From the IMG/VR virus record IMGVR_UViG_3300034980_000276, positions 1 through 34,541 of that record: DNA of 34,541 bases. One strand, 5' to 3'. Shown here piece by piece: positions 1,221-31,000 of this stretch. The notes under the pieces were generated by a model. That model was not told where the DNA came from and did no database searches. It saw nothing but the letters and a program-made list of their open reading frames with translations. Each line of letters opens with the position of its first letter. Positions within the stretch are counted from its first letter, which is position 1. This DNA comes from a virus. A program made the position numbers and the translations under genes.

Positions 1221-1250
1221 AATAACAGTATGCTCCGAGCACTTGCCCTG

Positions 1251-1539
1251 GGCTTGCGATTAGGCAAACCTCTCCCCTACCCAGCAAGCAAAGAAAATTA
1301 AGCTCACCCGGAGAGGAGAATTTGCCATCACCGGCCGTGCCGAGATTAGGCTTCCCGTTTCCCTGGGTTGCAGGCGGGAATAGCAGACTGCTTGGCTCAA
1401 CTTAGCCATCGATGCGTCCTTCTGCTTACCTCTGACGCTGCCCCTGATCGCTACCACAGTGGGGCGCACTGTTTTAGGTCTGCTGCCGTAGTACGACCGG
1501 ACCTAAAGTGGCCGAGTGGTCATTGCCTCGCTCGGTCTG
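1251..1539 (-). ncRNA. Densely structured RNA (leader or ncRNA), unassigned family
   Basis: Almost the whole stretch downstream of the promoter at 1546-1574 folds into perfect or near-perfect stems, given here in + coordinates. They are 1512-1516/1531-1535; 1473-1480/1500-1507 (8 bp); 1456-1461/1467-1472 (6 bp, 5-nt loop); 1414-1418/1434-1438; 1393-1397/1404-1408; and 1352-1357/1375-1380 with an inner 1362-1365/1371-1374. A long helix pairs 1263-1275 with 1310-1316 plus 1321-1326 (13 bp, one 4-nt bulge). That helix extends to 1256-1260/1327-1331 after a 2-nt bulge. No convincing ORF is present. It lies 5' of the spanin-like gene, so it may be a long 5' leader or a separate RNA; I see no clear terminator between it and the gene. 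It does not match the tRNA, tmRNA, RNase P or cobalamin patterns I can recall. Confidence 0.55.
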
Positions 1540-3235: not shown

Positions 3236-3616
3236 ATGTCCAGAAATGAAGCAAATCTAGATGGTAATCTAGGCAAAGACCCCGATGTTAGAACGACTGC
3301 TAACGGTAAGAAGTTCGCGAGATTCTCGCTGGCTACTTCCCGCAAGTGGAAAGATAAGGACGGGGAACAGCAAGAGTCGACGGAATGGCACAACATTGTT
3401 TGTTGGGGCTGGTCCGCCGACGTCGCCGAGACGTTGAGGAAAGGTGACCGCGCATTGGTCACTGGACGGATTCAGAACAGGAAGTATGAGAAGGACGGTC
3501 AGGATTGTTACATCACCGAAATTAACTGCTTCACGTTAGGAACGGTTCCGCGTACTGAGCGTAACGATAGTTACAACGATGTCGCGCCTGAACCTAAGGG
3601 CGATATACCTTTCTAA
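3236..3616 (+). CDS. ssb: Single-stranded DNA-binding protein
   Basis: This 126-aa OB-fold protein shows the SSB pattern throughout. It has an N-terminal strand with NLGKDPDVRTTANGK (residues 11-25), the ARFSLATSRKWKDK segment (28-41) and the EWHNIVCWGWSADVAETL motif (50-67). KGDRALVTGRIQNRKYEKDG (69-88) follows. The C-terminus is acidic and ends in GDIPF, close to the bacterial SSB tip DDIPF that docks partner proteins. A clear AAGGA precedes the ATG by 6 nt. It follows the exonuclease and annealase, so it probably coats the single strands they create and use. The linker is short, which is common for phage SSBs. Confidence 0.93.
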   Translation: MSRNEANLDGNLGKDPDVRTTANGKKFARFSLATSRKWKDKDGEQQESTEWHNIVCWGWSADVAETLRKGDRALVTGRIQNRKYEKDGQDCYITEINCFTLGTVPRTERNDSYNDVAPEPKGDIPF

Positions 3617-3617
3617 A

Positions 3618-4151
3618 ATGATCTGCCCTAAGTGCAGTGAAAATCGTACTCAGAGAGATTTCGTCGGTGGAGATAAGGTTTGTATACCTTGCAACACTGG
3701 CGAACTCTCGAAGTACGATATGAGTTCAGAAGCTCGTAGGGTCCTTAATTCTGTAACAAGAGTTAATGACACAGAGAATATATCGACAGATAAGGCTTTT
3801 TTCAAGTTTGGCGGCGAGATGCTTTTAGTGCTAAAGATAGTATCAGGCGCTATAGACACCTTGCTTGAGAAACCGAAAAACGATATAGAAGAAATCTACG
3901 AGTGGCTGAATGACTGGGATTGGGTCGCTGAGAGCGACCCCGGTCGAGACTGGAGTTTCGACTGGTGTGTGGGTATGCTTGCGCTGACGCGGGCGCGATA
4001 TGATGCAGGCAAACTTAGAGAGAGGGTGCAGGCTAATGCCTACGACTACAACAAAGTTTGCGAGATGAAGGAAAGAGCCATACGAGGGTTGGCCAGTCAG
4101 AAGGGGGCCGTCTTATGGAACGATGGCAAACTGGAAGGAAGAGAAGCTTGA
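3618..4151 (+). CDS. Hypothetical protein with N-terminal zinc ribbon
   Basis: The 177-aa protein (from ATG 3618) starts with MICPKC, followed by a second pair in VCIPC about 18 residues later. This C-x2-C...C-x2-C arrangement is a zinc ribbon. The rest is helical. The C-terminal half has WLNDWDWVAESD and WSFDWCVGML, an arrangement that recalls small phage proteins with a 'W..sD...SF..vC..L' pattern; the protein at 4643 has a similar part. A longer in-frame start exists at 3579 inside ssb, but 3618 is preferred because the zinc ribbon then begins at the N-terminus and the gene starts just after the ssb stop. The function is unknown; a nucleic-acid-binding accessory protein is plausible. Confidence 0.65.
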   Translation: MICPKCSENRTQRDFVGGDKVCIPCNTGELSKYDMSSEARRVLNSVTRVNDTENISTDKAFFKFGGEMLLVLKIVSGAIDTLLEKPKNDIEEIYEWLNDWDWVAESDPGRDWSFDWCVGMLALTRARYDAGKLRERVQANAYDYNKVCEMKERAIRGLASQKGAVLWNDGKLEGREA

Positions 4152-6669: not shown

Positions 6670-6680
6670 GCCCGGAAACC

Positions 6681-6716
6681 AATTTGGCCCCCTAGAAGCC
6701 TGATTTGACCCCCCAG
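6681..6716 (+). repeat. Imperfect 15-bp direct repeat
   Basis: AATTTGGCCCCCTAG (6681-6695) and GATTTGACCCCCCAG (6702-6716) match at 12 of 15 positions. Their starts are 21 nt apart, about two helical turns, as expected for paired protein-binding sites on one DNA face. They lie just upstream of a terminator and a promoter candidate. Confidence 0.4.
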
Positions 6717-6718
6717 GG

Positions 6719-6745
6719 ACCCGTATTGATATAGCAGGGTTTTTT
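6719..6745 (+). terminator. Weak intrinsic terminator after the early operon
   Basis: ACCC (6719-6722) pairs with GGGT (6737-6740), with an inner TAT/ATA (6724-6726/6731-6733), and a run of six T starts at 6740. The stem is short and interrupted, so its efficiency is uncertain. It lies 50 nt after the last early gene. Confidence 0.45.
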
Positions 6746-6771
6746 GTATGCTAGGATTAGAGTGATAGGTA
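6744..6771 (+). promoter_or_regulatory. Candidate promoter with extended -10
   Basis: TTGTAT (6744-6749), a 16-nt spacer ending in TGA, and TAGGTA (6766-6771). An ATG follows after 7 nt, the same geometry as the promoters at 765-793 and 1634-1662. An overlapping alternative is TGC-TAGGAT at 6749-6757. It could drive the region leading to the packaging genes. Confidence 0.4.
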
Positions 6772-6778
6772 AAATTTT

Positions 6779-6826
6779 ATGTCCGGAGGCCGCGCCTTCG
6801 CCTGCACCATCAAGGAATGGGTCTAG
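6779..6826 (+). CDS. 15-codon mini-ORF, possible leader peptide
   Basis: ATG 6779 opens a 15-residue frame (MSGGRAFACTIKEWV) ending in TAG at 6824. It lies 7 nt after a promoter -10 and overlaps the 5' arm of the hairpin 6781-6844, which is followed by six T. This is the geometry of a leader peptide that could influence termination. It may equally be chance. Confidence 0.25.
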   Translation: MSGGRAFACTIKEWV

Positions 6827-6853
6827 GTTGCTGGATCTCCGGGCGCCTTTTTT
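6781..6853 (+). terminator. Long-loop hairpin with T-run (attenuator-like)
   Basis: GTCCGGAG (6781-6788) pairs with CTCCGGGC (6837-6844) through 8 bp including one G-U. GCGCC and six T at 6848-6853 follow. The loop of 48 nt contains most of the mini-ORF 6779-6826. It fits an intrinsic terminator or attenuator in the leader of the packaging operon. Confidence 0.4.
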
Positions 6854-6953
6854 GTGATCCCCCCACACGAGGGTGTTAGTGGAATCTCCATAAACATCCC
6901 GTGTCAGTTGCAAACAAGCATCACCATTATCATCCGGCGGTCACTGGATGACG

Positions 6954-6969
6954 GGTTGACTTGTCAACC
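6954..6969 (+). promoter_or_regulatory. Palindromic operator-like site
   Basis: GGTTGAC-TT-GTCAACC is a perfect 7-bp inverted repeat with a 2-bp centre. It overlaps a weak promoter candidate, TTGTCA (6961-6966), 18 nt, TATGCC (6985-6990). A dimeric regulator such as one of the HTH or RHH proteins nearby could bind here; that link is speculative. Confidence 0.4.
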
Positions 6970-7010
6970 TGCTTATTTTGCAGCTATGCCGGACACCGCT
7001 CAAGGTGATG

Positions 7011-7048
7011 CCATCTCTGACCGAGATGGGGTAGTTCGGCTCTTTTTT
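7011..7048 (+). promoter_or_regulatory. Hairpin and T-run just before terS
   Basis: CCATCTC (7011-7017) pairs with GAGATGG (7023-7029) as a perfect 7-bp stem with a 5-nt loop. An alternative CCGA/TCGG pairing overlaps it and is closer to the six T at 7043-7048. Mutually exclusive folds suggest an attenuation or read-through control element. The terS Shine-Dalgarno starts right after the T-run. Confidence 0.35.
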
Positions 7049-7062
7049 AAGGAGTTTGTTTT

Positions 7063-7560
7063 TTGAGTGGCAAGAAAAAGCTTGGTCGACCAATAACCCC
7101 AGAGATTATAGCTGATGCCCAAGAAATAGGCAGCTATCTGGCGGCCGGTTACAAGCCCAGGGACATCAGGACCAAGATGAACCTGACGAAGCGCCAGTGG
7201 ACCTGGCGAATGCGTCACCTAAGGCAGAACTCCAACGACGCCATGGACGTGTGGACGCACCACTCGGCCAAGACGGACGTCAGATATCGACAACTTGAGT
7301 CCATCAGGCAGCAGGCGCTCGCACAGCAGAAGCCCTCCCTTGATGTGGCACGGCGATGCATCTCCGATATGATGCGATTAGATCAACAACTTATTGAGGT
7401 CGGCCAGGAGCTTGGCGTGTACAAGAAGGTGCCCAAGCGGGTCGAACTCACGGTTACGAACCCGTCGCTCGACATACTGTATGACATTGACATCACGGAT
7501 GCCGAGATTGACGACGGCGATACGCCGGTCCTGCGCGGTCCAGGAAAGGTGCTCCACTAA
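7063..7560 (+). CDS. terS: Terminase small subunit
   Basis: The 165-aa protein starts at TTG 7063, well supported by AAGGAG 8 nt upstream. Its N-terminal part is a HTH DNA-recognition unit (ITPEIIADAQEIGSYLAAGY, then KPRDIRTKMNLTKRQWTWR). A central helical oligomerisation region (residues 60-125) and an acidic C-terminus (DIDITDAEIDDGD) follow. In phages the small subunit recognises the packaging site and hands DNA to the large subunit. The assignment rests on the fold pattern, size and position directly before terL. The non-coding gap upstream is a candidate location for the packaging site, though I see no diagnostic cos signature. Confidence 0.75.
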   Translation: MSGKKKLGRPITPEIIADAQEIGSYLAAGYKPRDIRTKMNLTKRQWTWRMRHLRQNSNDAMDVWTHHSAKTDVRYRQLESIRQQALAQQKPSLDVARRCISDMMRLDQQLIEVGQELGVYKKVPKRVELTVTNPSLDILYDIDITDAEIDDGDTPVLRGPGKVLH

Positions 7561-9989: not shown

Positions 9990-11934
9990 AGATCTACCAA
10001 TTCTGTTCGACCATAACGGAGAACCGTTTTCGGCCTCCTATGAGGCTGACGAGGAACGGGGCATGAGCCTCGACGAACTATCCCAGATCTGGAGGACCGG
10101 GCAGGATCTCTCCTCTGCGAACGTCGTTGCTACAGCGCAGTCTGCTTTCGAACACCAGTCCTGGGTCTATGCTTGCGTTAACGCCCTAGCACGAACCATC
10201 GCACAGAATCCTCTCCGGGCTCGACGCCCTGGCGAAAAGAAGGTCGCTGAAAACCTCAGCCCTAAAGAGCAGCGCGCAATCGGCCTACTGAGCAGGCCGT
10301 CTGCTAGAAAAACCGGTTACGACCTCTGGTACGTGACCGAAGCAGCAGCGGATACCGCAGGCACAGCCTTCTGGTATCTAGAGGGCGCTGGCCCCAAGGG
10401 TCAACTACCCAAGCGCATCGTTCCTCTCAGCCCTGCGAAGATAACCATCATGACGAGCAACGACGGCTGGGACGTCGTGGGTTACGTTTACCGCAACCTT
10501 GACGGTTCGAAGATGAACATTCCGCCGTACCAGATCATCCAGATAGGCCCGCCGAACCCATACGACAACATCCAGGGTGTGGCTCCACTACAAGCCGCAA
10601 TGAAAGCCGTGTCTACCGACATGAAGGCCGAGTCTTACAACGCCAAGTTTTTCGATAATGGTGCGCAACCAGGCGGTATATTATCCTCAAGGAAGACCCT
10701 TGGCAAGAGGCAGGCGGACGCGGTGCGCTCTGAGTTCGAGGGTCGGCACCGGGGGAACGCAGGTTCGCACAAGACGGCGATCCTGTCCGGGGAGTGGGAC
10801 TATAAGCAACTGGGTTTAGGACAGAGAGAAATGGAGTTCCTCCAGCAGCGCAAGTTCTCAAGAGAACAGATCGGTGCTGTGTTTGGAGTTCCTGGCGTTC
10901 TGACGAACGACCCCAATAAATCTAACTATGCAACCGCTCACGTAGAGCTACGCATCTTCGCCGACACGAACTGGGTGCCGAAGATCCGCTACTACGAGGA
11001 AGTAATGAGAACTCAGTTCTTCGAGAGATTCGCTCCGGGGATTGAGGCATTCTTCGACCTTTCCGAGGCCCCAGGGCTTAGAGAAGACGTCTCAGACAAA
11101 ATAGATCGCGCCATGAAGCTGAACCGCATGGGTGCCCCCTACAATGAAGCCAAAGAGTTTGTTGGCTTGGACTTAGAGGATGTGCCATGGGGCGAGTCAT
11201 GGTGGGTAAACTCTTCGCTGGTCCCGGCTGATAAACAGATGGAACTAACGGATAAACAACTCGAAGAGGAACCTGAAGAGAAGGCCGAGCCAGAAGAGAA
11301 CGACGTCCCGGCCCAGTTGTTAGACAAGGATCGCATGGCGTATTGGGACTCGATCAGAGCCCAGTTCACCGATGCGGAAGCATCGCTCAAGACGGTGTTT
11401 ACGTCAGTCACGAACGAAAGGTTTATTGAAGAAACAGTGCAGGATGAATCACATCAATTCACTGAGCAAATTTTGGAAGGTTCGTGGAGCTTGGCCCTTA
11501 GGGCGTCGAGGTCCGTGTTCCTAGATTTGGGAATCGAGTATACAGACTCGATTGTGGATGCCATCGCCAAGCAGGCCATCGACTCTTCTCGATCACACGT
11601 TGAGAAGGTCGTAGGGAAGCTGCTTGATACGGATGGGATATCGAAAAAGCAATGCCTGAACCAAGCACGCCGGTTCTGCCGGGTCGTAAGTTTGGCAATC
11701 ATCAACGAGGCTAGGTTCGCTAGCATGAGAGCGTTGGGTATCAGGAAACATGAATGGTTTATGTGCCGTGACCAAACGGAGGTTCGGCATGTTGCGCGTC
11801 ACTTCATAGATGGTGAGCGCGTAGAGATAGGCAGTAGGTTTAGTATTGGTGCGGCTTCCCCGCACGAAGATAATGACGATGACTGTCGTTGTATTACAAT
11901 GCCCGTAACGGGCTCAGGAGTTAAGCATGGATAA
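9982..11934 (+). CDS. Portal protein fused to a MuF-like domain
   Basis: The 650-aa protein (ATG 9982; TTG 9976 possible) has two parts. Residues 1 to about 415 are a HK97/SPP1-type portal, with SAFEHQSWVYACVNALARTI at 55-74, FWYLEGAGP, PPYQIIQIGPPNPYDNI and SREQIGAVFGVPGVLTND. A strongly acidic linker (about 420-440) joins a helical region. This leads to a C-terminal MuF-type motif: WFMCRDQTEVRHVARH with Asp597 and His607, then DCRC near 634-637. MuF domains are usually separate minor head proteins attached to the portal; here both are one chain, so the head vertex would carry 12 MuF domains by design. Confidence 0.9.
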   Translation: MIKDLPILFDHNGEPFSASYEADEERGMSLDELSQIWRTGQDLSSANVVATAQSAFEHQSWVYACVNALARTIAQNPLRARRPGEKKVAENLSPKEQRAIGLLSRPSARKTGYDLWYVTEAAADTAGTAFWYLEGAGPKGQLPKRIVPLSPAKITIMTSNDGWDVVGYVYRNLDGSKMNIPPYQIIQIGPPNPYDNIQGVAPLQAAMKAVSTDMKAESYNAKFFDNGAQPGGILSSRKTLGKRQADAVRSEFEGRHRGNAGSHKTAILSGEWDYKQLGLGQREMEFLQQRKFSREQIGAVFGVPGVLTNDPNKSNYATAHVELRIFADTNWVPKIRYYEEVMRTQFFERFAPGIEAFFDLSEAPGLREDVSDKIDRAMKLNRMGAPYNEAKEFVGLDLEDVPWGESWWVNSSLVPADKQMELTDKQLEEEPEEKAEPEENDVPAQLLDKDRMAYWDSIRAQFTDAEASLKTVFTSVTNERFIEETVQDESHQFTEQILEGSWSLALRASRSVFLDLGIEYTDSIVDAIAKQAIDSSRSHVEKVVGKLLDTDGISKKQCLNQARRFCRVVSLAIINEARFASMRALGIRKHEWFMCRDQTEVRHVARHFIDGERVEIGSRFSIGAASPHEDNDDDCRCITMPVTGSGVKHG

Positions 11935-27182: not shown

Positions 27183-27674
27183 ATGGCTAATACAACAGAA
27201 GTAGATACTGATCTTTTAGAAATTGGAACTGATCCCGAAGAGTGGATCGACATCGACACGATTAGCGGGCTTGAGATGCAGGTTCGTTATCTTTCCCCCG
27301 AAGTGATTCGTGGGTTGCGCAAGCGCGCTACATCGAAGGTTCGCAATAAGTCGACCCGGCAGATGGAAGATGTTGTCGACGACGACAAGCTGGCCAAAGC
27401 TATGGTGAAGCATGTGGTTCGGGATTGGCGTGGCATGACGGTGGAGAGACTGGAGCAGCTTGTTCCTCTTTCGGCAGCGTCGTCCGCAAAGATCAAGAAG
27501 CTCGGCAAGAAGGGACTCCCCTATTCGGAGGACTACCTTGAAGTCTTGCTCGACAACGCTTACGGCGGGCAGTTTCTGCAAACCGTAATCGAGATCTCCA
27601 TGGACCTTGGTGTGATGAAAGACATCGCACGCGAGCGTCTATCAAAAAACTCCGGCGGCTCGTCGGATACCTAA
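27183..27674 (+). CDS. Tail assembly chaperone G (short form)
   Basis: The 163-aa protein from ATG 27183 is the predicted lambda-G-like chaperone. It is acidic at the N-terminus (MANTTEVDTDLLEIGTDPEE) and helical later (RGLRKRATSKVRNKSTR; KAMVKHVVRDWRGMTVERLE; EDYLEVLLDNAYGGQFLQTV). It ends soon after a perfect slippery site (27644). An upstream ATG at 27084 lies inside the terminator hairpins and is not used here. G and its frameshifted GT form bind the tape measure and the tail tube during tail assembly. Confidence 0.8.
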   Translation: MANTTEVDTDLLEIGTDPEEWIDIDTISGLEMQVRYLSPEVIRGLRKRATSKVRNKSTRQMEDVVDDDKLAKAMVKHVVRDWRGMTVERLEQLVPLSAASSAKIKKLGKKGLPYSEDYLEVLLDNAYGGQFLQTVIEISMDLGVMKDIARERLSKNSGGSSDT

Positions 27675-28024
27675 GACGGGGCTACTGGCCCTCGTCCTGC
27701 GGTCAATGCGACGAGCTTAGAGAGCTAAACGGTGGAGTTGCCCCCTTCGCCCCCGATCCTTGTGAATTCTCTTGTATCTTCCAGAGCTTCGGACATGAAG
27801 CGATGACATGGTACAGTATTTTCAGGAAGGGGACGAAGGGGACAATCGATAAGGAACACGGACCAGTCCGGTGGGAGATAAACTTTTCCGCCGTCGAGTT
27901 TCTTTTCGATGCCTATGGTATAAATAACAGGAAAGAGGGCCTTGAGGTTCTCTACGAGATCATTGGGATCTACGACGACCCTGATATAACGGACGAAGAT
28001 ATATTGTATCCTGAGGAGGAATGA
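27183..28024 (+). CDS. Tail assembly chaperone GT (frameshift product)
   Basis: A -1 shift at 27650 joins the first 156 codons of G to a second frame that is open until 28022-28024, giving about 280 aa. The T part starts LRRLVGYLRRGYWPSSCGQC and has CxxC near its start. An acidic helical end follows (NRKEGLEVLYEIIGIYDD, then EDILYPEEE). The second frame has no proper start of its own apart from an internal ATG at 27803, and its stop overlaps the tape measure start. This is the classic arrangement: the longer GT is made at a low ratio and links the tape measure to the tube. Confidence 0.82.
27644..27650 (+). promoter_or_regulatory. -1 programmed frameshift site A_AAA_AAC
   Basis: In the G frame the codons are TC[A AAA AAC], exactly the X-XXY-YYZ form needed for a -1 slip. 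After slipping, reading resumes at C27650. GC-rich sequence starting 2 nt downstream could stimulate it. Confidence 0.85.
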
Positions 28025-31000
28025 TGGCTAGCATGGGAAGTGACATCGCTGCGCGCATTAGATTGGAAGCTAGTGCTGCGTCTAGTGTTACTAAAGTTAT
28101 CACATCTACCGAGCAACAATTCAAGTCGCTCGGCAAAACCGCCAAAGACACCAGCACCCAGATGGGCGCCCTCTCCGACAAGGAAGAGCGCGCTGCTAGG
28201 GCCACTAAGGACCTTGGCGAGGCAGCGACACACTCCGCAGAAAACATGCGGAAGATGTATCAGGAGTCCGACAATGCCACTGACGGTATTGCGCGGCTAG
28301 GTGCAGCTTCGTTCGCTGTTAACAATATTATCACTGGCCTAACTAAGGTCAGCGGCCGAATGGTCAACGTGATGAAGGACATCGTGTTGACGTCGTCAGT
28401 GTTCGAACAGAAAATGGCAAACGTCGGCACGCTAATGTCGTCGGACGTCACCCCCCGTGTAAAAGAACTCTCAGCCGCAGTAATTGAACTGTCTAAAGAG
28501 TTCGGTGTCGCAGCGGACCAGTTAGGTCTGGCAACCTACCAGGCCCTGTCCGCTGGCATCACGGACACGAGAGACGCGGTCGAAACACTCGAAGCCGCAA
28601 CAAAGTTATCCATCGGCGCACTCGGCACGATGGAAGAGTCAATGAAGATCCTCGCCGCGTCGACCAATGCGTTTGGTTTCGCCGCCGGGTCAACCACCGA
28701 AATTGCCAACGTGATGCAGTTGACTGTCCGACAGGGCGTCACGACCGTTGGACAATTATCACAAGCCTTTGGTGCAGTCGCATCCATCGCAGCCCAAGCC
28801 GGAATATCCCTCAGGGAAATGTCTGCTGCCACAGCAGCGTTAACAACCGCTGGTTTCGATACTGCAACTGCGCAACAAAACTTAAGACAAGCAATCGTTT
28901 CGGTCTTAGCACCAAACGCAAAAATGGTCGAACTGTTCAGACGCATTGGCGTCGAGAGCGGGCAGGCCCTTATCGCCACAAACGGCTTCGTCGGCGCGTT
29001 CGATAAATTGCGCGCTGCGGCTGGGGACTCCGGCTACTTAAAGGAAGCCATTGGGCGAGTGCAGGGCTTCTCGGCCGCAATGTCCTTAACCGGGCTGCAG
29101 GGCGACAAGTTCCGCGAGACGATGGCCTTGATGGCCACAGAGGTCGGTGCGCTTGACGATGCGGTCAAGACGGCTACGGATACGTTCGAGGTTGCTGCCA
29201 ACCAATTCCAGGCTGCGCAGGATTCCTTAAAGATCCGCGTGATGAAAGAAGCGAACGGCGCCATTATACTTGTCACCAAGGGGCTGACCTGGATGGTCAC
29301 TGCCATAGAGACGCTTATCGACAAGCTGGGGATTGTTGGCTCGTATATTACCGGCTTCGTGGGTGCCCTCGCGGTCGTTGTCGTTGGGCTCTTCGCTGCC
29401 ATCGCCGCTGTGGGTACCTTTGGCCTACAGCTTGCGCTACTGAACGTAGCCCTGGTGCAAAGCGGATTGAAGGCGTGGACCTTTAGTCGAGCGATTGTGG
29501 CATTAACCAACGTCATGGTAGTAAAGCCGGTGACGTTCTTGGCTAACTCGGTGCTGTTCCTGGGGAAAACGTTCCTCATGCTGATAAACCCAATGGCTTA
29601 TTACAGGGGGGCTATGTACCTGAACACGCTGGCGACTCTGGTGTTCGGCTCAAGCTTGGCCGTAGTGACTGCCTACTTCACCGTGTTCGTTGCCGCTGCT
29701 GTTGCGGGGGTTGCGTTGGTGTACGTGTTCGGCAAGGCCCTCTGGGACCTGGCCAAGAGCATGGGCGCTAGCTGGGAGGCGATGAAGAGCTTCTTCGGCG
29801 AGGTTAAGGACGGGCTAAATAGGATCATCCCCCACTTAGGGGACTTCATCTCCCTGGGCTGGTTAATGGACGGCGCGAAGTGGGGTTGGAGTTGGATCAA
29901 GGGGCTAGGCGAAGGATTCCTGGGCTTAGGTACGGCCACTATGGAAGCGGAGGAGGGGGTCGAGAGTTTCGAGGAGCGACTCAAAAGTCTGGGCGACGGT
30001 GCCATCTTCACAGAGTTGGCAGGCATGGCGACCAGCATCCGAGAGGCGATGGCCGGGACAGTTGCTGAGGACAACGGCGGGTTCATTCTCCCCGATAAGG
30101 CGATAGAGGGGATAGAGCAGTTCCGACTCGGAGTAGAGCGCGCAACGGAAGACCTGAACCACATGGCTGCTGGCGGTGACAGGAACACTGCGCTTAGGGC
30201 GCTGTTGAATTCACTCCGTGCCGCGAGTGAGCAGTTGGGCGAGAACATTAACGACGGCTCCAACGCCATGAACTACCTCAAAGAGGTATTAGAGGCCACC
30301 GAGAGGAAGTGGTTCGACCTTACCGTGACGCAACGGTCTGCCGCTGATGGTATATTCGAGACGGTGGAAGCGCAGAAGAAACTCCGCGACGAAGTCGAGA
30401 AATCCCATGCGTTAGAAACGGGGCTATACAAAGCAAGGGCCGACGCAGGGAAGACCGTGTTCGACCTCGCGCTAAAGCAAGCCCAGATCGACGGAACGAT
30501 TTACGCGAACCAGGAAAAACTCGCTGCTCTTGCTACTGATGCTGACGCTCGCGCAAGAATAAGTCTTGAACACAAGATCGAGATGCAGAAGAAGATAGTG
30601 GCTGGGGCAAGGGCGCACTACGAAGAAGAGTCAAGGACTGTGCAGACTGCATTAGCCGTGCAGGACATGTTGCTTGCGAAGCTAGCTATGAGGAACGAGT
30701 TCACCCTCAAGTGGGAGAAGGCTCTAAAGGGCGCAAAGACGGAAGCCCAACAAATTGCGGATACCTTCAAGAAGATAGAAAAAGCCCAATCCTTCGACCA
30801 AGCGGCTGCTGACTCAATGGCGGAGCTAGCGCAGCAAAGGGTTGCGACATCAGAAGCCTTGGAAGAGGGCCTCGTCAAGCAGAACATGCTGAAGAAGGCG
30901 GCCCTGCAGGCGGACCTGGACGCCCTCGAAGTGGCCTCACGGACAGCACAGGAGAAACTGAGGGGCCTGGATAATACCGAGGAAGGCTTGCGGGCTCAGG

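Follow-up and report, generated by a model that had tools for sequence, protein, structure and literature searches.

The locus raises the question of what function, if any, is carried by a long stretch of non-coding DNA between two divergent gene sets of a phage. The window analyzed is the whole of the stretch available from the phage record IMGVR_UViG_3300034980_000276 (IMG/VR), 34,541 nt, and it is incomplete: its left end truncates the leftward operon, and its right end cuts into a long reading frame, 28021->34541, which runs off the end and is tape-measure-like, judging from its size and position. ORFs directed leftward at 28-34 kb were at first taken to continue the leftward operon, an idea dropped once they were recognized as shadows of this frame. 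Phage genomes are compact, and the intergenic DNA of the window totals 1,764 nt, of which 449 nt are supplied by the gap 1221-1669, the largest in the window. To its left, on the minus strand, lie the small genes 942-1220, 790-945, 240-758 and 41-391; to its right, on the plus strand, begins an operon encoding RecE-like (1670), RecT-like (2594), SSB (3236) and RuvC-like (4123) proteins. The structured part of the gap has a GC content of 0.58, versus 0.41 in the adjoining AT-rich promoter stretch. A second big gap that appears to be non-coding (393 nt) was noticed at 6670-7062, between an 81-aa ORF and gene 7063-7560, which immediately precedes the gene of the large terminase; a 70-aa ORF, 6854-7066, may occupy part of it.

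Coding capacity of the region was rejected on codon usage. Codon scores are negative for all ORFs of at least 27 codons inside the gap, in agreement with the initial annotation, in which no ORF looked real; a shorter ORF of 26 codons, 1516-1596 on the plus strand, has a score of +6.2 bits. The small leftward genes do have coding character by their codon scores. The 49-aa ORF 1409-1260 on the minus strand was rejected as a gene, having a codon score of -6.3 bits and no family match; it lies inside the structured region, carries AAGGA 7 nt ahead of its ATG and has a hydrophobic C-terminal part. A frame of six codons, ATG ACC ACT CGG CCA CTT TAG, is present at 1503-1523 on the minus strand, in the 5'-terminal part of the predicted leader, and possibly represents a leader peptide, although the upstream GAGG is located very near its ATG.

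The stems listed in the initial annotation are all present on the minus strand at their listed positions, according to the sequence and to fold prediction. The bulged helix GGCAAAU-UCUCCUCU / AGGGGAGAG-GUUUGCC (1326-1312/1278-1263) gains 1331-1327/1260-1256 on its outer side and 1308-1302/1289-1283 on its inner side, the latter including three G-U pairs; this helix of 13-18 bp is part of a long imperfect 3' hairpin predicted at 1251-1336. The 8-bp stem UUUAGGUC/GACCUAAA (1507-1500/1480-1473) and the inner 5-bp stem 1497-1493/1489-1485, which together occupy 1473-1507, have probabilities of 0.90 and 0.94. The hairpin UUCCCG/CGGGAA with the inner CCUG/CAGG at 1352-1380 (1380-1371/1365-1352) has probabilities of 0.95 and 0.88, and further helices are formed by 1438-1434/1418-1414 and 1408-1404/1397-1393. 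The 6-bp hairpin with a loop of 5 nt, ACAGUG-CGCCC-CACUGU (1472-1467/1461-1456), is present in the sequence but is outcompeted in the predicted fold, where the mean probability of its core pairs is 0.17. The extent of 1251-1539 originally given for the element proved too short at one end, a closing helix and a candidate ribosome-binding site being located at 1241-1233.

A promoter-like site is found on the minus strand at 1546-1574, with -35 TTGCAT (1574-1569), a 17-nt spacer, -10 TATGAT (1551-1546) and TG at 1554-1553. It was initially described as strong; the site exists, but with 8/12 consensus bases and an extended -10 its strength is moderate. Six minus-strand sites of equal grade occur in the 34.5 kb window, and the chance of one such site in the 449-nt gap is estimated at roughly 1/12. 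For the rightward operon a separate site was read from the sequence; its -35, TTGACA (1634-1639), is perfect, whereas its -10 is weak. The stretch 1545-1669 between the divergent promoter-like sites is AT-rich (GC 0.41) and may be an operator; it contains the repeats AAATCGTAAAAA at 1588 and AAATCGAAAACA at 1610, as well as an imperfect inverted repeat at 1611-1635. No intrinsic terminator was found on the minus strand between 1545 and 942. A weak terminator-like site is present at 786-771 in the leftward operon, and no strong terminators were seen downstream of the leader within the window.

Folding energy was compared with that of shuffled sequences and of other windows of the phage. For the minus strand of 1545-1221, z is -1.8 (5/100 shuffles as good), and for the predicted structured leader, 1538-1229 on the same strand, the start site of which was placed from the promoter, z is -2.6 (6/500 shuffles as good). 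The plus strand of 1538-1229 gives z = -0.3, with 172/500 shuffles as good. The control set, 82 windows taken from other parts of the phage and each 310 nt long, has a mean z of -0.95 (sd 1.8), and 26% of these windows reach z <= -1.8; the value of -2.6 is within the range of the phage's other windows. The description of the region as far denser in structure than expected is therefore an overstatement, the excess stability being modest, and counting stems by eye overestimates the rarity of such a region. In windows of 120 nt only 1225-1344, which is the 3' third with the long hairpin, is strong (z -3.9), and the 5' two thirds of the region have z of about 0. Four 120-nt windows of the plus strand, 28321-28440, 3601-3720, 11521-11640 and 27601-27720, have lower values (z -4.6 to -6.2, 25 shuffles each); they are mostly located within genes or at gene ends.

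The absence of a match to known RNA families, noted from the outset, was borne out by an Rfam 15 scan of the whole window, which gave 0 matches at the gathering cut-off; at E <= 10 a single chance match to a frameshift site (E 9.5) was found in 1200-1680. ARAGORN detected 0 tRNA or tmRNA genes in the window. Only chance matches of 24-29 nt were obtained by blastn against phage and plasmid records, and all 24 loci found by a scan of the viral collection for a 15-mer pattern were judged to be chance; the best of them, L074, was rejected, lying over the beginning of a coding gene that is unrelated. With this one sequence as the basis of a covariance model, the window itself is recovered, and no credible match was obtained in 24 other records, at 25 loci or in 274 genomes from a single class of bacteria; this class was picked via a weak terminase relative, so the result for these genomes carries little weight. 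One match of this model, 15 nt with E 0.29, was rejected as the seed pattern in the record of L074.

The search with neighboring genes revealed relatives of RecE with 25-30% identity and a single clade at the level of the terminase, consisting of L050 and L082, and no such RNA was found at either. Queries with RecT and with gene 942-1220 gave no locus, and the genome collection contained no useful prophage. L050 and L082 are the closest phages found, with a terminase 48% identical, and the gene order in common with L050 was checked. In both phages an unrelated leftward gene overlaps or abuts recE, and the region is without counterpart. This gene left of recE (208-930 in L050 and 229-1047 in L082, both on the minus strand) has a HECCH motif and by eye is zinc-metalloprotease-like. 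The collections may lack records that are very close to the window, so the failure to find a homologue does not imply that the element is unique.

The entire structure is closed by a long-range helix of 7 bp, P1, formed by CCGAGCG (1529-1535, minus strand) and UGCUCGG (1235-1241, minus strand) with a mean probability of 0.49. The candidate ribosome-binding site GGAG (1233-1236, minus strand), proposed 12 nt ahead of the ATG at 1220, which is a long spacing, shares its first two bases with the 3' strand of P1. The 5' strand of P1 can alternatively pair with CUCGG (1512-1516, minus strand) in a local hairpin, 1535-1531/1516-1512, with a probability of 0.35, so P1 and the competing hairpin are of similar predicted weight (0.49 vs 0.35). 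When the competitor was forced, exposure values of 0.64 and 0.46, up from 0, were predicted for the two bases of the site that belong to P1, and the start codon was loosened, but the last base of the site was nearly always paired. Features of a translation-controlling leader were thus found in silico: a gene of the same strand is located directly downstream, no intrinsic terminator lies between, and the structure covers part of the candidate ribosome-binding site.

We tentatively interpret the region as a structured 5' untranslated leader of the leftward operon (942-1220, 790-945, 240-758 and onward), with a proposed switch. This reading fits best because of the promoter-like site just upstream, the absence of an intrinsic terminator before 942-1220 and the closing helix over the candidate ribosome-binding site. 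Pairing potential, lack of a coding signal, position and the absence of an intrinsic terminator are observed in the sequence, and transcription of the leader, its start site, the switch and the effect of the switch are predictions. Transcription would begin near 1538 at the promoter with the extended -10, the control region being divergent and common to the recE operon, and the leader of ~310 nt would fold as a domain shut by P1 (1535-1529 with 1241-1235). Together with the small stem that follows, P1 would mask the candidate ribosome-binding site and the start codon of 942-1220, resulting in low translation; formation of the local hairpin in place of P1 would partly free the ribosome-binding site. 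The balance could be shifted by a protein, by a ribosome on a short upstream frame or by folding during transcription.

The leader reading is favored by the size of the gap, the GC-rich sequence beside an AT-rich promoter, the folding excess of the minus strand only and the z of -3.9 for the 3' hairpin; against it stand a folding excess that is modest and unexceptional for this phage, the lack of a homologue and the closest phages found, which have nothing comparable here. The switch is weakened by the long 12-nt spacing and by the pairing of the last bases of the ribosome-binding site in the competing state. Competition between helices of 5-7 bp for a single strand often arises by chance. The structure is moderately supported as RNA. 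It is quite unlikely, in our judgment, that the region, with its ~310 nt, represents a novel class of phage leader RNA, one switching between the long-range closing helix over the ribosome-binding site and a local 5' hairpin and thereby timing the leftward operon in infection.

The genes that such a leader would control were initially called lysis-like, a label based on small hydrophobic proteins, which holds weakly. The first downstream gene, 942-1220 on the minus strand, encodes a protein of 92 aa with an N-terminal hydrophobic segment, and its resemblance to Rz-like spanins is below threshold (spanin profile, E = 0.21). The one distant relative found for gene 240-758 belongs to another phage, where it adjoins an SSB-like gene in a cassette of the recombination/replication type; by this gene context, the leftward operon may not be lytic but early or replication-linked. 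On the minus strand, ORF 41-391 and gene 240-758 overlap by 152 nt; this overlap would be avoided by a start within the ORF at 253, for a protein of 70 aa; ORF 41-253/391 has a faint, sub-threshold resemblance to ribbon-helix-helix regulators (HicB-like, E 0.06; Arc-like, E 0.24).

Ranked behind the structured leader, and rather unlikely, is the explanation that the region is a long leader of no special note, or intergenic DNA that has decayed, transcribed or not, and that its structure has no selected role. To our knowledge, several stems always form in a GC-rich sequence this long; the z of about 0 over the 5' two thirds, the 26% of other phage windows at z -1.8 or lower, the absence of the region from relatives and the lack of a homologue agree with such an origin. 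It accounts poorly for the largest gap in a compact phage genome, for a folding excess on the minus and not on the plus strand, and for the 3' hairpin with z -3.9. Between the two options offered in the initial annotation, a phage ncRNA or a long regulatory 5' leader, the leader fits best. A free-standing small RNA, produced from the promoter at 1546-1574, cut from the 5' UTR and acting in trans, would have a promoter-like site of its own and a compact fold, P1 closing a few nt from the predicted start; it is improbable given that no intrinsic terminator precedes 942-1220, that the gene starts only 15 nt past the closing helix and that no homologue was found.

More improbable still is an element acting at the DNA level, a replication origin or an operator between divergent operons, whose inverted repeats function as DNA, with the RNA fold a mere by-product. 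The divergent position beside recombination/SSB genes and the AT-rich core 1545-1669 with short AAATCG-A-rich repeats at 1588 and 1610 are consistent with it, but these repeats fall outside the structured part, the three G-U pairs of 1308-1302/1289-1283 would be mismatches in DNA, and the folding excess is restricted to one strand. Least probable is a promoter-proximal antitermination element of the put or nut kind, an RNA modifying RNA polymerase for read-through of terminators in the leftward operon. Such elements are known from lambdoid phages, and several stems do follow directly after the putative promoter of the operon; by eye no clear boxA or boxB is seen, and in the part of the leftward operon that the window contains, cut at its left end, the weak terminator-like site 786-771 is the only one seen. 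Orphan phage leaders are easily missed, because a single sequence yields no covariation. The structured leader is at present a candidate with modest statistical support and, if real, would be one more instance, from a phage, of control by a leader RNA at a divergent switch point of early genes.

Among known systems, the nut and put antitermination sites are promoter-proximal RNA elements of lambdoid phages, and the region shares with them RNA structure near the promoter of a phage operon; unlike them, it has no recognized nut or put sequence elements, and no strong terminators follow within the window. Some large ornate RNAs of the GOLLD type are phage-borne. GOLLD and other large RNAs are described as giant and ornate (PMC12286853); a many-helix RNA in a phage context is common to both, whereas the region analyzed here is ~310 nt long, has no Rfam match and is mostly of ordinary folding energy. 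With structured leaders exerting translational control, similar to riboswitches and ribosomal-protein leaders, it shares a long promoter-proximal non-coding leader, a closing helix, a competing 5' hairpin and, by prediction, a helix overlapping the candidate ribosome-binding site; in contrast to them, it matches no leader or riboswitch of Rfam, and the likeness comes from the predicted fold of one sequence. Candidate structured RNAs were found via long, GC-rich intergenic regions by a pipeline that orders candidates by homologues and covariation (PMC6429828). Although known from one sequence, unlike those candidates, the region is likewise unusually long and relatively GC-rich intergenic DNA with no coding signal, and it belongs to this known kind, the structured RNAs of long, relatively GC-rich intergenic regions screened in that work.
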